The notes below the pieces were generated by a model. It had not been told where the DNA came from. It worked only from the letters and a program-made list of their open reading frames with translations, and searched no databases. Positions 11,192 to 34,386 of a stretch of 38,654 nucleotides of DNA are shown piece after piece (within the stretch, counting starts at the first letter, position 1; every line of letters begins with the position of its first letter). Both the position numbers and the translations under genes were made by a program. This stretch comes from Microcaldota archaeon (lineage in GTDB: Archaea; Iainarchaeota; Iainarchaeia; Iainarchaeales; 1-14-0-10-31-34): the NCBI GenBank assembly GCA_018829335.1, contig JAHJUD010000048.1, forward strand, positions 1-38,654. The letters are read 5' to 3'.

Positions 11192-11593
11192 TCATTTTAT
11201 TCTTTCTAAAAATTCTTTCGGCTTAACAATTTTCATTTTATTAAACTCTTTTAATTTAAGCAAGTGTTTGTCTCCGCTGACAATATAATCTGCATCAGCT
11301 TCAAAAGCTGCCTCTAAAACCTTGTTGTCGTCTGGATCATCTTTAATCAAATTAATTTTATTTTTTGGCTTAACCAATTTCAAAGCTGAAACAAAAACAT
11401 CGATTCTTTCCTGAACTTCAGTTTCATTCAGCTTAAAGTCTCTCTTCAAAACTTTTGAATATTCCAGTAAAATTTCAGTTGAAGTGAAAACTTCAATTTT
11501 TCCTTCAAAAGCTAACCTCATTACTCTGAAAGGATTTCCTTTCCAAAAAGAAGCAGAAACCAAAATATTTGTGTCAACAACTGCTTTCTTCAT
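11192..11593 (-). CDS. PIN-domain toxin (VapC-like)
   Basis: VVDTNILVSASFW..., DDPDDNKVLEAAFEADADYIVSGDKHLL. Confidence 0.88.
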   Translation of the reverse strand: MKKAVVDTNILVSASFWKGNPFRVMRLAFEGKIEVFTSTEILLEYSKVLKRDFKLNETEVQERIDVFVSALKLVKPKNKINLIKDDPDDNKVLEAAFEADADYIVSGDKHLLKLKEFNKMKIVKPKEFLERIK

Positions 11594-11874
11594 TCTTTAA
11601 TGCCTCTTCCTTTATGAATCAGCTTTGAAACATCTTTTTCTTTTATTCCAAGTTTTTTGGCTTTTTTCTGCCCTTTTGAAACCAATTCTTCAAATTTTTT
11701 CAGCATTTCCTCTTTTGAAGGAGTTTTAATCCTCTTCAAAAGCAGACTGTCCTTGCTTCCAAAAACAGCAAAAGCTTCTCCTTCTTCCAGCTCCATTTCT
11801 TCTCTAATGTCCTGCGGGATAACAATCTGACCTCTTGAAGACATTCTGGTTAATTCAACTTCGCCCAAAAACAC
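11590..11874 (-). CDS. AbrB/SpoVT-type antitoxin
   Basis: ELTRMSSRGQIVIPQDIREEMELEEGEAFAVFG; GTG start at 11874 behind a GAGGT-like RBS; 4-nt overlap with the PIN gene. Confidence 0.85.
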   Translation of the reverse strand: MFLGEVELTRMSSRGQIVIPQDIREEMELEEGEAFAVFGSKDSLLLKRIKTPSKEEMLKKFEELVSKGQKKAKKLGIKEKDVSKLIHKGRGIKE

Positions 11875-11948: not shown

Positions 11949-12023
11949 AACAGCTCGGCTGAACGAAGTGAATGCCGTGCGCCGTCACTCGCGAGCGGAA
12001 TCGCGACGGGCCTGGGAGGATTC
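11949..12023 (-). repeat. Duplicated 3' end of tRNA-Arg plus abutting hairpin(s)
   Basis: 22-nt exact repeat CGCGACGGGCCTGGGAGGATTC at 12002-12023 and 12657-12678; hairpin TCGCGA-N6-TCGCGA at 11989-12006. Confidence 0.85.
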
Positions 12024-12071: not shown

Positions 12072-12299
12072 TTATCTTTCCAGCAATTCAAGAAATTCCT
12101 TTTTGTTCATTTTCAGGTCTTTCTTGATTATGCTGTTGAGTATTCCCGAACCAATTGATTCATTTCCATGAATTGGAACAGAAGTTTTTCTTCCGTCAGG
12201 ATGGGCAAATCTGTGATGGCTTCCTCTGATTCTCGTCTGCTCAAAACCTAATTTTTGTAATACTTTAATTAGTTTTTTTGATGTAACCTGCAAAGGCAA
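12072..12299 (-). CDS. hicA: HicA-like mRNA interferase toxin
   Basis: TSKKLIKVLQKLGFEQTRIRGSHHRFAHPDGRKTSVPIHGNESIGSGILNSIIK. Confidence 0.92.
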   Translation of the reverse strand: MPLQVTSKKLIKVLQKLGFEQTRIRGSHHRFAHPDGRKTSVPIHGNESIGSGILNSIIKKDLKMNKKEFLELLER

Positions 12300-12302
12300 G
12301 TT

Positions 12303-12524
12303 TTACACCTCAATTCTTTGAATGCCAACAAAAGAACTCTTAGGGATTTCTTCTTTTTCTTCCTCTAAGTCCTCTAAACATAACTCAATTACTTCTTTTA
12401 CTCTCTCAATTAGTTGATCCATTGACTTTGCCTGAGTATGGCATCCCTGCAATTCAGGAACATCAGCAACAAGCCATCCTTCTTCATCTCTTTCAATTAC
12501 AACAGTAAAAACCTTTTTTTCCAT
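12303..12524 (-). CDS. hicB: HicB-like antitoxin
   Basis: FTVVIERDEEGWLVADVPELQGCHTQAKSMDQLIERVKEVIELCLED; ATG at 12524. Confidence 0.9.
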   Translation of the reverse strand: MEKKVFTVVIERDEEGWLVADVPELQGCHTQAKSMDQLIERVKEVIELCLEDLEEEKEEIPKSSFVGIQRIEV

Positions 12525-12661
12525 AAGTTCACCTAAATAACTACACATCAAACAGATTTAAATCTTTTCATTCGCTAATCAACGAAAAAAGAAAAATATG
12601 TTACAGCTCTATCAAGTCTAAGGCGAAGATAGTGCACAAGCGCTCGCGGATTGAGCCGCGA

Positions 12662-12877
12662 CGGGCCTGGGAGGATTCGAACCCCCGATCCTCAGCTATC
12701 TTAACAATTTTTCCAATCAAAAAAACCAATAGTTTTCGCAAAGCGAAAACCTTTTTGACACAACTTTTTTAAAAGTTGTTTTTTGTTAAACCTTTTTTCT
12801 AAAAAGGTTTTTTTGATTAAACTTTTTTGCGAAAAAAGTTTAGAAGGCTGATGCCTTATCCACTAGGCTACAGGCCC
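12662..12877 (-). tRNA. tRNA-Arg(TCT) with ~143-nt intron (12698-12840) after position 37
   Basis: Acceptor GGGCCTG/CAGGCCC, D-arm, anticodon stem TCAGC/GCTGA with loop CTTCTA^A, T-arm GGGGGTTCGAATCCTCC. Intron sits at the canonical archaeal 37/38 position. Confidence 0.9.
12698..12840 (-). repeat. Hairpin-module array forming the tRNA-Arg intron
   Basis: Palindromes at 12732-12750, 12761-12778, 12789-12809 and 12819-12841 joined by AATCAAAAAA, TAACAAAAAA and TGTCAAAAA linkers on the minus strand. Confidence 0.85.
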
Positions 12878-16195: not shown

Positions 16196-16219
16196 AAAAA
16201 CTCTTTATTAAATTGAGAA

Positions 16220-16240
16220 TGCGGAGTGAAGGATTTGAAC
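16220..16240 (-). pseudogene. tRNA 3'-end remnant
   Basis: Minus strand GTTCAAATCCTTCACTCCGCA resembles a T-loop plus acceptor 3' strand; no matching 5' half seen. Confidence 0.45.
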
Positions 16241-18794: not shown

Positions 18795-19031
18795 ATGGGA
18801 ATAGAGTTCACAAAAAAAGTAATTGAATACTTTCTAGACAAAATCACTTTATTTGTCAGCTTAATTTACATCTGGTTTTTTATGGGAATACTAACAGGCA
18901 TGCTTTTAATGATTCACGGATTAACTGCTTTTGCTGTTGTTCCATTAATTATTGCATTAATTGCATATTATAACAGGGCTTTTTCAGTAATCCTCTTTTT
19001 TGTTTCTGCCGTAATCTTTTTCTTGATTTAA
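18795..19031 (+). CDS. Small membrane protein
   Basis: Several hydrophobic segments in 78 aa. Confidence 0.5.
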   Translation: MGIEFTKKVIEYFLDKITLFVSLIYIWFFMGILTGMLLMIHGLTAFAVVPLIIALIAYYNRAFSVILFFVSAVIFFLI

Positions 19032-19034
19032 AAA

Positions 19035-19217
19035 TCACTTTAAAAGAATTGAAAAAAGCTCTTTTTCAGAAATAGTTTTTCCTTCTTTAATTTCTTTTCT
19101 AATCTTGTTTAGTTCAGCTGATTCCTTTGCGCTAAGTCTTAAACAAATTTCTTTATCCCTTTGTTCCACTAAAACATTTTTCTCAAAATTACCTTTTGTA
19201 TCTGAATATTTTATCAT
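19035..19217 (-). CDS. Small protein downstream of relE-like gene (possible antitoxin)
   Basis: IKYSDTKGNFEKNVLVEQRDKEICLRLSAKESAELNKIRKEIKEGKTISEKELFSILLK; overlaps the end of the toxin ORF. Confidence 0.45.
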   Translation of the reverse strand: MIKYSDTKGNFEKNVLVEQRDKEICLRLSAKESAELNKIRKEIKEGKTISEKELFSILLK

Positions 19218-19584
19218 ATTTTTCATGATCAATAATGTCTAATACATCCAGCCATATTGACAGCACGTCTATTTCAGTGGCTTCTCTTAACGGCTGCTTT
19301 AAAGTGTAAATCATTCTCCAATAACTTGGCAAATTAATTTTCCACAAGTTTGTAACTTCGTATTTTTCCAGATATTTTTTCGGGATTTGCTTTTTCTTTA
19401 TTTGAATCCCTGCTTCACAGTTTATTTTCAGTAATTCTATTTTGTCATTAATTCCCTTTAACAATGTCTAATGAGGAGAATTAAGTATTCCATTTGTTTT
19501 TTCTTCTTTTACTATTCTGTTCAATTCTTTGTATTCTTCTGAAGCATCATCCAAAAGTTTCACTGTAACTTTCCTTCTCTTCAT
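19189..19584 (-). pseudogene. RelE/ParE-superfamily toxin interrupted by in-frame TAG
   Basis: MKRRKVTVKLLDDASEEYKELNRIVKEEKTNGILNSPH[TAG]TLLKGINDKIELLKINCEAGIQIKKKQIPKKYLEKYEVTNLWKINLPSYWRMIYTLKQ... TAG at 19468-19470, frame continuous on both sides. Confidence 0.75.
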
Positions 19585-19587
19585 TAA

Positions 19588-19860
19588 TTAAACCTCTATT
19601 CCTCTTCTTTCTGCTTCCATGAGTTTCTTGCTTGGATTAAAAGTCCAAATAAATCCATTCCTTGTCTCTAAAATTATTCCTTTGTTTTCCAAATAATTTA
19701 AAGCATAATTCAAAGTAGAACGCATTACTTTCTTAGGCAGTCTATCCAGAATTTCATTCCTGCTTACAGCCAAATCAGCATTCTTTATAACTTCTTCAAT
19801 CGCTAAAACAGTTTTAAGAGTAGGAAAATGAACAACATTAGTTTTCTGAACAACAACCAT
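19588..19860 (-). CDS. Winged-helix protein, likely antitoxin/regulator of the relE operon
   Basis: TLKTVLAIEEVIKNADLAVSRNEILDRLPKKVMRSTLNYALNYLENKGIILETRNG; ATG at 19860 after GGTGGTGAA. Confidence 0.6.
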   Translation of the reverse strand: MVVVQKTNVVHFPTLKTVLAIEEVIKNADLAVSRNEILDRLPKKVMRSTLNYALNYLENKGIILETRNGFIWTFNPSKKLMEAERRGIEV

Positions 19861-19865
19861 TTCAC

Positions 19866-19897
19866 CACCTAATATATTTATCACCTAATATATTTAT
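19866..19897 (-). promoter_or_regulatory. Exact tandem 16-bp repeat over the putative TATA box
   Basis: CACCTAATATATTTAT twice in tandem; minus strand ATAAATATATTAGGTG x2. Confidence 0.7.
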
Positions 19898-20045: not shown

Positions 20046-20166
20046 TTAGTGAAAAGCACAACATAAAGTTGTAATAGTCCAGATTTATGCCGCATGTTTG
20101 GTCAAACTTTAAAAAGCAGTGCGACTTTACGTCGCACATTTTGATAAACCTTTTCTTAAAAGGTTT
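20046..20166. repeat. Hairpin array next to tRNA-Ser 3' remnant
   Basis: GTGCGACtttacGTCGCAC (20119-20137), AAACCTTTTcttAAAAGGTTT (20146-20166), plus a degenerate unit near 20070-20100. Confidence 0.75.
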
Positions 20167-20178
20167 ACGCAGAGGACG
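20162..20178 (-). pseudogene. tRNA-Ser 3'-end remnant
   Basis: GGTTTACGCAGAGGACG, identical to 34086-34102 (end of tRNA-Ser(TGA) plus trailer); one mismatch to 22487-22503. Confidence 0.65.
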
Positions 20179-20228
20179 TAAGTCCCTCAAAAAGTTCAAG
20201 TCCGAAAACTTTAAATATTCCTGGCAAA

Positions 20229-20813
20229 CTAGGCAGCATAAAAATTTTTTTGTTCTGTTTTTTTGCAACCATTTTTGTTTAAGCAGATTTCCAAGTGTGG
20301 ACAGTAAAGCTTGTTAAGCGCATTTTCAATGGATTTTTTCTTTTTCTTGTCTGTTTCTCCATCAAATAATCCTATAAGAACCATGTATAATTCCGCGTAC
20401 ATTGATTCAGTGAATTTTCCATGCAATGGTCTGATGCTTCCAAAGGCGTTTGCTGATGCACACCTAACTTTTCCGCTTTCATCAACTATTGTTTTCAGGA
20501 ACAATTCCAACATTTCATTGATTTTTTCTTCAAAAATATCCGATATCTGCATTGTGCTAAGCCCTCTAAGCCCAGCATAACGCGTTTCTGGTTTTTGAGA
20601 GAAACCCATTTTTAAAAATTCATCTCGCAAAAACTCCAGTGTTTTTGTTGCCTTTTGCCCAGATATTCTGCTCCATTTCTCATCATAGTGTTGATGGAGC
20701 ATTTTATTCAAAGTCTTTACGGCTTCATTTATTTTCTGTGTTTCTCCAGACATTAAAAAATCCAAAACTTCTTCAGCAATTTTTTTGTTCGCCTTTCCTT
20801 CAAATATTTCCAT
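20229..20813 (-). CDS. HEAT/ARM-like alpha-helical protein, third gene of abiE operon
   Basis: All-helical ORF 'VDESGKVRCASANAFGSIRPLHGKFTESMYAELYMVLIGLFDGETDKKKKKSIENALNKL'; start is 1 nt after the abiEii stop. Confidence 0.55.
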   Translation of the reverse strand: MEIFEGKANKKIAEEVLDFLMSGETQKINEAVKTLNKMLHQHYDEKWSRISGQKATKTLEFLRDEFLKMGFSQKPETRYAGLRGLSTMQISDIFEEKINEMLELFLKTIVDESGKVRCASANAFGSIRPLHGKFTESMYAELYMVLIGLFDGETDKKKKKSIENALNKLYCPHLEICLNKNGCKKTEQKNFYAA

Positions 20814-20814
20814 T

Positions 20815-21606
20815 TCAATTACCTTTTATTTGCCTTTTTTTCTTTTTTTCTTGTTTTAGGTTAAAATGTTTTGCAAAGCTTGTTATTACTTGATGAAAAG
20901 AAACTTCTTTTGCTATTAATGGAATTAAATCTTTGTCCCAACGGTTTTTCAGCTTGTTTGCATTGTTAAACATTCTTGTTATATCAAATTCTTTTTTTGA
21001 CTGCCTGCATTTTTTTCTTACTATTTCAAAGTCAATTTCTTGTTTTGCCTGAATTATTTCATATACATCAAAATGGTCTCTTGGTTTATTTCTGGTTATT
21101 GCAGCAGAAACTTTTTCTGCTATTAACTCTTTTTTTGCCAGAGTATTCAATGAAAAGCTAGGAATAAATTCATTGTAAAAGTGTTTTATTTCGTGTTTTT
21201 CCGGCAGCAAAAACAACTTTGCTCTTTTGTTCAAGTCAATAAAAACTTTTTCTTTTTCTCCGTTGAATCCAGTATAATGCACAACAAGCCTTGTAAAGTC
21301 TTCAACAGTTTTGTCTTCAGTTATTCTCTCAAAAAAACCAGATTCCTGCAATGCCGAGATTATTTCCTGCTTTACAATGCTGATGTCTTTTGTTACTGTA
21401 AAGTCAATGTCTTCGCTTAAGCGCGAATAATTCAAAAAAATTTTTTGTAGCGCTGTCCCGCCCTTAAAATATATCCTATTAATATTCCTAATCAAATACA
21501 ATACCAAAGTCAAATAATAATCTTTAGCCAAAAATATTGGGTTAAATTTAAGCAAAACAGCCAGATCCTTGAATTCAGATTCACTCAGCTTCTTGATTTC
21601 ATCCAT
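20815..21606 (-). CDS. AbiEii-like nucleotidyltransferase toxin
   Basis: IYFKGGTALQKIFLNYSRLSEDIDF, typical GG(T/S)..ExxDxD nucleotidyltransferase motif. Confidence 0.9.
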   Translation of the reverse strand: MDEIKKLSESEFKDLAVLLKFNPIFLAKDYYLTLVLYLIRNINRIYFKGGTALQKIFLNYSRLSEDIDFTVTKDISIVKQEIISALQESGFFERITEDKTVEDFTRLVVHYTGFNGEKEKVFIDLNKRAKLFLLPEKHEIKHFYNEFIPSFSLNTLAKKELIAEKVSAAITRNKPRDHFDVYEIIQAKQEIDFEIVRKKCRQSKKEFDITRMFNNANKLKNRWDKDLIPLIAKEVSFHQVITSFAKHFNLKQEKKKKRQIKGN

Positions 21607-22097
21607 TCTTTTGCCTGTTTTTTGTTCAAAACATTGAAACTGTGATTTCCAATGTTTTTAGAAACAGAATTTTCAAGGCTTTTTTTTGTTGTCCTGTGGA
21701 ATACAAAACGCATATTAAAAATTTCTTTTTTGCCTTGCCTTTTAGTAGTAAAAATATCTATTTGAGCAGGAATCTGGTCAGAAAACTTCCAAAAATATGC
21801 TGCAGCATAACCTCCGACAAAATAATTGCTTCCATCAAAAATTTCGTCAGCAATCACAAAAGGATTCTCAATCCAGGAACCGCTTTTTGCTTTTATCGGA
21901 ACAAGATAATACTTGCTTCTGTTAAGCTTTATTATCCGCTTTTTTTTCAAAAGATTTTTCATTACATTATACCTTTGATTTTTGCTTTTGAAAAAACGCT
22001 TTATTTCCTGAACTCTAAAAAAATATTTACCGTAAAACTCAATCCAAGAAACAATTTCCATTTCTTTCTTTGAAAGCCCGCTAAAAACAACAACCAT
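21585..22097 (-). CDS. AbiEi-like antitoxin/transcriptional regulator
   Basis: N-terminal wHTH, 'GGYAAAYFWKFSDQIPAQIDIFTTKRQGKKEIFNMRFVFHRT'; overlaps abiEii. Confidence 0.82.
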   Translation of the reverse strand: MVVVFSGLSKKEMEIVSWIEFYGKYFFRVQEIKRFFKSKNQRYNVMKNLLKKKRIIKLNRSKYYLVPIKAKSGSWIENPFVIADEIFDGSNYFVGGYAAAYFWKFSDQIPAQIDIFTTKRQGKKEIFNMRFVFHRTTKKSLENSVSKNIGNHSFNVLNKKQAKEWMKSRS

Positions 22098-22108
22098 ACA
22101 AAAACACC

Positions 22109-22131
22109 AATTAGTAAATATACTACTAATT
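22109..22131. promoter_or_regulatory. Palindromic operator candidate upstream of abiEi
   Basis: AATTAGTA-AATATAC-TACTAATT perfect 8-bp inverted repeat 12 nt upstream of the start. Confidence 0.6.
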
Positions 22132-22286
22132 AATGTTAATCCTTAAAAAGCTTTTGTTTTTCAACTGCCAGTAACCGAAACACAAACAGTTTTCATAACC
22201 AAAAACCCAACTAAAAATGAATCAATGCCGGCAATGCAAGCTTTTTAAGCTCTTCATTCTTCCTGATTTTAGGACTTAAATTTTTG

Positions 22287-22481
22287 CAGTCCGGCTTTAC
22301 GCCTGACGTTTGGTTAAACCCTTTGCAGTACGGGCTTGCCCCATACATTTAGTTAAACCCTTTGCAGTACGGGTTTATCCCGTACATTTAGTTAAACCCT
22401 TTGCAGTACGGGTTTATCCCGTACATTTAGTTAAACCCTTTGCAGTACGGGTTTATCCCGTACATTTAGTTAAACCCTTTG
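22287..22481. repeat. Five tandem 39-bp units, each with a hairpin
   Basis: CAGTACGGGTTTATCCCGTACATTTAGTTAAACCCTTTG; units at 22287, 22326, 22365, 22404 and 22443; the last three identical. Confidence 0.95.
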
Positions 22482-22493
22482 GAAAGGGTTTAC

Positions 22494-22576
22494 GCGGAGG
22501 ACGAGATTTGAACTCGCGAGTCCTTTCGGACACCAGCTCTCCAAGCTGGCGCATTAGACCGCTCTGCCACCTCCGC
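22494..22576 (-). tRNA. tRNA-Ser(GGA)
   Basis: GCGGAGG/CCTCCGC acceptor, anticodon stem CCAGC-TTGGAGA-GCTGG, long variable arm, T-arm CGAGTTCAAATCTCG. Confidence 0.93.
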
Positions 22577-22670
22577 AACAAACTTTTTTCAAAAGTTTGA
22601 TCAAAAACAGTTCACTTCGTGAACAGTATAAACAAACCATAAAATTAGATAAATAAACAATTAAAAAGCA

Positions 22671-34090: not shown

Positions 34091-34092
34091 AC

Positions 34093-34175
34093 GCAGAGGA
34101 CGAGATTTGAACTCGCGCATCCTTTCGGATACCGGCTCTCAAGGCCGGCGCGTTAGACCACTCCGCCACCTCTGC
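34093..34175 (-). tRNA. tRNA-Ser(TGA)
   Basis: GCAGAGG/CCTCTGC acceptor, anticodon stem CCGGC-CTTGAGA-GCCGG, long variable arm, T-arm CGAGTTCAAATCTCG. Confidence 0.93.
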
Positions 34176-34386
34176 AACAGCCTTTTTTCAAAAAAAAGGC
34201 TGGCGAAAAAAGGTTTTCGCTACGCGAAAACAACCATAATAACTCTAAAAAATAGCTGTAAAAATATTTATAAGCAGTTAGTGAAGGCAATTAGCCTGCA
34301 AGCTAACAAAACACAAAGAATGATTTATTATTTGTTTTATCCTTTTAGTATTGCTGGAAAAGCTTTTACAGCAAGGAGGAAAAAAA

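Follow-up and report, generated by a model that had tools for sequence, protein, structure and literature searches.

Genomic islands targeted to tRNA genes are recognized by their ends: an intact tRNA gene borders one of them, and a 3' fragment displaced from that gene marks the opposite one (the Islander concept, PMC4383910; PMC8371274). Insertion by tyrosine recombinases at the T-arm/acceptor end of such genes is known in archaea, with tRNA-Arg(TCT) being named a favoured target (PMC8371274); the word DPANN is absent from the main text of this review of the archaeal tyrosine recombinases. Integrons and CALINs, including the archaeal ones (PMC9668308), comprise tandem small cassettes with a conserved end site, a single orientation and toxin-antitoxin (TA) cargo, and some of their arrays are found without an adjacent integrase. 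The dif/pdif modules of Acinetobacter (PMC6449649) are likewise small, often TA-bearing units without a recombinase of their own, which are thought to be moved by the Xer recombinases of the host. The cassettes described here, which belong to a family of archaea, share features with each of these systems. They have the two ends of tRNA-gene islands but differ from them in being 0.6-2.7 kb long, mostly integrase-less, loaded with TA or defence genes and sometimes tandem. Those in tandem arrays resemble integrons and CALINs in all the above respects, but their anchor is a tRNA gene and their sites hold the 3' end of tRNA-Tyr. In contrast to dif/pdif modules, the sites derive from tRNA genes and lie on the chromosome as direct repeats.

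The window, i.e. the whole 38,654-nt stretch of DNA analysed here, is one complete contig of the 1.45-Mb, 158-contig assembly (genome G000) of a Microcaldota archaeon; the introns of its tRNA genes likewise indicate an archaeal source. On its minus strand, an intact tRNA-Ser(GGA) gene is followed in order by a hairpin array, abiEi, abiEii, a HEAT-like gene, a tRNA-Ser 3' remnant and further hairpin modules (Table 1). The initial annotation had proposed this arrangement, and the tRNA calls, the profile matches and a 17-nt identity of the remnant bear it out; the third gene is present as claimed, but its HEAT identity is weak, with the profile match lying below the cut-off. From their profile matches, abiEi and abiEii are identified as an AbiE-type pair of predicted antitoxin and toxin, and they are adjacent and overlap, as is common to the type IV AbiE systems; in contrast, none of the other abiE copies examined was accompanied by a third, HEAT-like gene. 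Profile searches of the genes enclosed by tRNA-Ser and the remnant recovered no integrase match. The core of the remnant, CGTCCTCTGCG on the minus strand (20168-20178), corresponds to the last 11 nt of tRNA-Ser and is followed by TAAACC from its trailer. The remnant is identical at 17/17 nt to the end and trailer of tRNA-Ser(TGA) and has one mismatch to those of tRNA-Ser(GGA), and the match extends over 62 nt at 81%.

Table 1. Features of the tRNA-Ser and tRNA-Arg loci in the window
Feature	Coordinates	Strand	Basis or remark
tRNA-Ser(GGA), intact, cassette anchor	22492-22577	-	ARAGORN and Rfam RF00005
39-nt tandem hairpin array directly 3' of tRNA-Ser(GGA)	22283-22491	-	dispersed tRNA-enriched repeat family, not cassette-specific
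abiEi-like antitoxin gene	21585-22097	-	PADLOC AbiEi 5.7e-20
abiEii toxin gene (nucleotidyltransferase)	20815-21606	-	Pfam PF08843 2.9e-25
HEAT-like cargo gene	20229-20813	-	PF02985 E=0.003 (below cut-off); weak JetB E=1.8e-5
Cassette distal end: inverted tRNA-Ser T-loop GACTTGAACT (9/10) and 16-nt spacer	20179-20203	-	direct reading and weight matrix
tRNA-Ser 3' remnant GGTTTACGCAGAGGACG	20162-20178	-	11-nt core and 6 nt of trailer
Hairpin modules beyond the Ser remnant	20046-20161	-	
tRNA-Ser(TGA), intact, without cassette; 3' end also matches the Ser remnant	34091-34176	-	ARAGORN
tRNA-Arg(TCT) with 143-nt intron, hicAB anchor	12662-12877	-	ARAGORN with introns allowed; missed by the default search
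hicB antitoxin gene	12303-12551	-	PF15919 3.4e-9
hicA toxin gene	12072-12299	-	PF07927 2.1e-18
tRNA-Arg 3' remnant past hicAB, 22 nt, exact	12002-12023	-	copy of the tRNA-Arg 3' end GAATCCTCCCAGGCCCGTCGCG

We propose, with a probability of about 0.72, that the ~2.3-kb segment with abiEi, abiEii and the HEAT-like gene is an integrase-less cassette that entered tRNA-Ser(GGA) at its 3' end. The insertion would be the work of a tyrosine recombinase, supplied in trans or once borne on the element and since lost: the cassette, in circular form, would have carried a tRNA-like site, and the enzyme would have recombined this site with the T-arm/acceptor portion of the gene, the crossover probably falling in or near the T-arm. 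The outcome would be an intact tRNA restored on one side and its displaced 3' end left at 20162-20178 on the other. By the same process, hicAB would have come to lie behind tRNA-Arg, other TA or defence cassettes behind other tRNAs of this archaeal family and tandem arrays behind tRNA-Tyr, with this cargo probably being kept by selection after the remainder of an element has decayed. The footprint is the known one of tRNA-targeted integration, here in miniature and devoid of an integrase. In favour of the proposal stand the results detailed below: the repeats and their excess over the controls, the lack of abiE behind this tRNA in two relatives of the genus, the differing cargo found behind one tRNA in sister species, the sites that different cargos share, the truncated integrase of one cassette, the acceptor-end repeat of an integrase-bearing element and the likeness of the Ser remnant to the Tyr sites; the class of recombinase, the circular intermediates and present-day mobility are inferred. 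Counting against it, the tRNA-derived portion of the Ser remnant is only 11 nt, and the abiE cassette encodes no recombinase, nor has one been tied to the sites.

The relatives compared, each represented by a single, fragmented assembly per species, were two of the same genus (G001 and G002) and one of the same family (G003). The window shares synteny with G001:C47 (L054) and G002:C58 (L076). Only 281 nt separate tRNA-Ser(GGA) in G002 from the ortholog of the window gene at 18795-19031, as against 3.5 kb in the window, and AbiEii has no match anywhere in the G002 genome; G001 does have an AbiEii match, but elsewhere than behind tRNA-Ser(GGA). The tRNA-Ser site is uninterrupted in G002, just as is expected of a tRNA-integrated island, and the lack of abiE behind tRNA-Ser(GGA) of both G001 and G002 answers the concern that the locus might be ancestral across the clade. 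Further, tRNA-Ser(GGA) ends with CCTCTGC in both of them, as does the remnant, and with CCTCCGC in the window. The acceptor of the window's own gene probably changed after the insertion, and the remnant would fit the older 3' end of the same tRNA-Ser(GGA) gene, which explains its closer resemblance to tRNA-Ser(TGA). Between the remnant and the syntenic flank, the window has a further stretch of ~1.1 kb that is likewise missing from G002 and holds two small genes (19189-19884); L003 8826-9430 contains a pair paralogous to them. That no remnant bounds the window pair counts against the proposal of an integrated cassette, as does the location of abiE mostly away from tRNAs in other relatives. Trailer similarity was rejected as a proof of the empty site: the hairpin modules share a vocabulary and the trailers of unrelated tRNAs match equally well, and hence the comparison is not diagnostic of empty versus filled sites.

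The hicAB locus, to which the initial annotation had attributed the same order with a tRNA-Arg, is a true second case of this layout, with an intron-bearing tRNA-Arg(TCT) on one side of the gene pair and an exact 22-nt 3' copy on the other. In G001, a Fic gene lies behind tRNA-Arg(TCT) between exact 37-nt repeats, in place of the hicAB pair of the window; the tRNA at L054 12526-12736, one of those mislabelled by ARAGORN, is a tRNA-Arg(TCT) by sequence. An end shared by the hicAB and Fic cassettes was considered as a set of recombinase arm sites but is more likely a relic of the Fic promoter region. Just past the hicAB remnant, the window carries an AbrB-like and PIN_3 gene pair (11192-11874) not seen at the site in G001 or G002, which is paralogous to the AbrB-like/PIN_3 genes directly upstream of tRNA-Ala in L016.

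For 141 tRNAs in the four genomes, the final 17 nt were then searched for exact 11-mer recurrences within 8 kb in each direction and on each strand. We found 13 copies downstream on the same strand, none upstream, one downstream in reverse and none upstream in reverse. One of the 13 stems from a mis-called tRNA, leaving 12 genuine copies against one in the controls; the Ser remnant itself falls outside this set owing to its mismatch. Given the excess of 13 over one in the three control directions, the 3'-end copies are therefore not chance matches, and the configuration of an intact tRNA at one end with a displaced 3' fragment at the other, which typifies tRNA-integrated islands, is present. 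Remnants were recovered at several other tRNAs with adjacent cassettes, and the class of tRNA-anchored TA/defence cassettes suggested from the first two cases gains members at tRNA-Thr, tRNA-Leu(CAA), tRNA-Gly and tRNA-Tyr, along with the Fic cassette at tRNA-Arg of G001.

Alternatively, the 3' copies could have arisen by the spread of tRNA hairpin repeats through slippage or homologous recombination, with the cargo caught between them by accident. Stem-loops are indeed several times denser in and around the tRNAs of the genus (2-5 per kb) than in other intergenic DNA (0.4-0.8 per kb), and only hairpins separate some tRNA-end copies (Gln and L055 in G001; Leu(CAG) in G002). We consider this improbable: the repeats at tRNA-Gly, tRNA-Asn and tRNA-Tyr of G003 have no hairpin clusters between tRNA and remnant, the cargo is repeatedly TA or Fic, and the conserved 38-nt site described below is not a hairpin. 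Hairpins also occur upstream of tRNAs, around cassette-free tRNAs and inside tRNA introns. They are a separate, tRNA-enriched repeat family that is not specific to cassettes, and the idea that they form an attC-like part of the cassettes is not supported. As separate observations, introns packed with the tRNA-flanking hairpin modules are seen at window 12662-12877, L002 106-370, L017 1-206 and L071 7676-7864, and such tRNAs of the genus can escape default searches; moreover, two tandem 48-nt copies behind tRNA-Gln(CTG) of G003 (L127 7853-7960) fold into a strong hairpin, one arm of which is the tRNA end (z -5.4).

Other single cassettes and elements illustrate the range of contents at tRNA ends. 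Behind tRNA-Thr(CGT) of G000, a Fic gene lies between two tRNA 3' halves unlike that tRNA's own end, and behind tRNA-Gly(CCC) of G003 a Doc-like gene (HAFASGNRR) lies between repeats that include the trailer. The cassette at tRNA-Leu(CAA) of G000 runs from a 49-codon frame through an ImmA-type regulator and a DUF4411 gene to the remnant. Its first 147 nt are 89% identical to the integrase gene behind tRNA-Leu(CAG) of G001; the frames agree over 31 codons only, with 28/31 residues matching, and we read this cassette as opening with a truncated integrase. Full integrase elements occur at tRNA ends at tRNA-Leu(CAG) and tRNA-Asp of G001 and at tRNA-Asn of G003; the last of these spans 6.1 kb, encodes a complete tyrosine integrase and shows, like the cassettes, an acceptor-end repeat, here of 12 nt. 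The genomes examined encode one or more other integrases and, in most cases, a XerA-like protein; the latter (289 aa) and the integrases of 400-450 aa are candidates for the recombinase. In addition, tRNA-Thr(CGT), tRNA-Pro(CGG) and tRNA-Leu(GAG) are each followed, at a distance of 60-100 nt, by the 3' half of a different tRNA (L006 7547-7571; L014 6451-6475; window 16216-16236).

The truncated integrase and the full elements lend weight to the view that these loci are decayed islands, i.e. integrase-bearing tRNA insertions that lost all but their TA genes and do not constitute a class of mobile cassettes. It shares the insertion step with our proposal and differs on movement without an integrase of their own. 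A TA system is, moreover, known to promote the maintenance of an integrated element (PMC2654960). The tRNA-Tyr arrays speak against such decay, with their many cassettes and well conserved sites without an integrase match, as do the repeats at tRNA-Arg of G001, whose near-identity across ~50 nt suggests a recent insertion without an integrase; we rate this view as a serious one, somewhat short of even odds. Casposase-type Cas1-like enzymes also target tRNA 3' ends. Transposition by such an enzyme with a long target duplication would yield direct repeats of tRNA 3' ends and tandem insertions; however, a target duplication would be of fixed length, whereas the repeats range between 12 and at least 37 nt, and this same family has tyrosine integrases placed directly at tRNA ends, making it a very remote prospect.

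The arrays behind tRNA-Tyr bring the likeness to integrons into focus. In G003, six cassettes are marked off by five 38-nt sites (consensus CGGGAGTTGCACCCGYAGAGCAGNGTTGGGAGGCGGGA) together with one last copy of the tRNA end; their respective cargos are a transposase-like gene with a surface protein, Fic with a RuBisCO-like protein, RHH with PIN, Fic, an HTH gene and a YhaV/ParE-like gene. Related sites in G000, G001 and G002 lie on contigs with Fic, PemK, RHH with PIN and other genes, with a DEAD-box helicase-like gene past the last site in all three; assembly breaks separate the arrays from tRNA-Tyr in G000 and G002, so that their tRNA end is missing. In all, there are 15 such sites in five genomes, and the tandem cassettes are each closed by a conserved site, as in integrons. 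Among 75 genomes of the order, all four belonging to the family have the site; outside the family, G015 has two copies and G066 a single weak one, and the reversed pattern is found in none. Its end is the 3' end of tRNA-Tyr and its start reads as the T-arm of tRNA-Tyr inverted. The loose analogy to integrons raised in the initial annotation gains better support than was apparent there, from these tandem sites and not from the hairpins, but fails on two counts: the arrays contain no PF00589 integrase match, and attC-like folding was seen neither in two Tyr sites (z -0.29, -1.17) nor in the Ser remnant (z -0.40). Since the two tested sites do not fold significantly, the Tyr sites are not attC by structure. 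The sites are absent from the viral and phage sequence collections searched, and none of the papers searched reports tRNA-Tyr cassette arrays. A common right-end motif for the second type of Tyr junction was supported only in part, since a portion of it looks like PemK homology.

The Ser locus holds a single site, as against the tandem sites at tRNA-Tyr. At the Ser locus, GACTTGAACT, an inverted tRNA-Ser T-loop with one mismatch, stands 16 nt before the core of the remnant. Scored with a weight matrix that was built from Tyr sites only and covers positions upstream of the core, the Ser remnant reaches p~6e-4 in exact register and 3e-3 with two positions' play either way; of 14 other remnants, only the Gln copies of G003 score similarly (1.4e-3, 8e-3). 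Corrected for 15 remnants, p is ~0.01 at exact register, which suggests, but does not prove, a resemblance of the Ser remnant to the Tyr sites. As a tentative and rather doubtful extension, a trans-acting recombinase in this family might collect, stack and exchange single TA/defence cassettes at tRNAs independently of integrons, using sites made up of an inverted T-arm, a spacer and a tRNA 3' end, with the Tyr array as the main platform and abiE and hicAB as single-cassette outposts.

An integron-like array behind one tRNA may represent a little-known way of collecting TA and defence genes. It would provide streamlined archaea with a concrete route to gain and exchange such genes, account for their recurrence beside tRNAs in this archaeal family, and imply that integron-like arrays may escape attC-based searches. 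The cassettes may still be mobile, and the conserved 38-nt site, together with the empty and filled sites, makes mobility directly testable. Finally, the T-loop of tRNA-Tyr in G001 and G003 (L200 2920-3085; L225 1141-1338) reads TGCAAAT, with an unusual base, G, at position 55.
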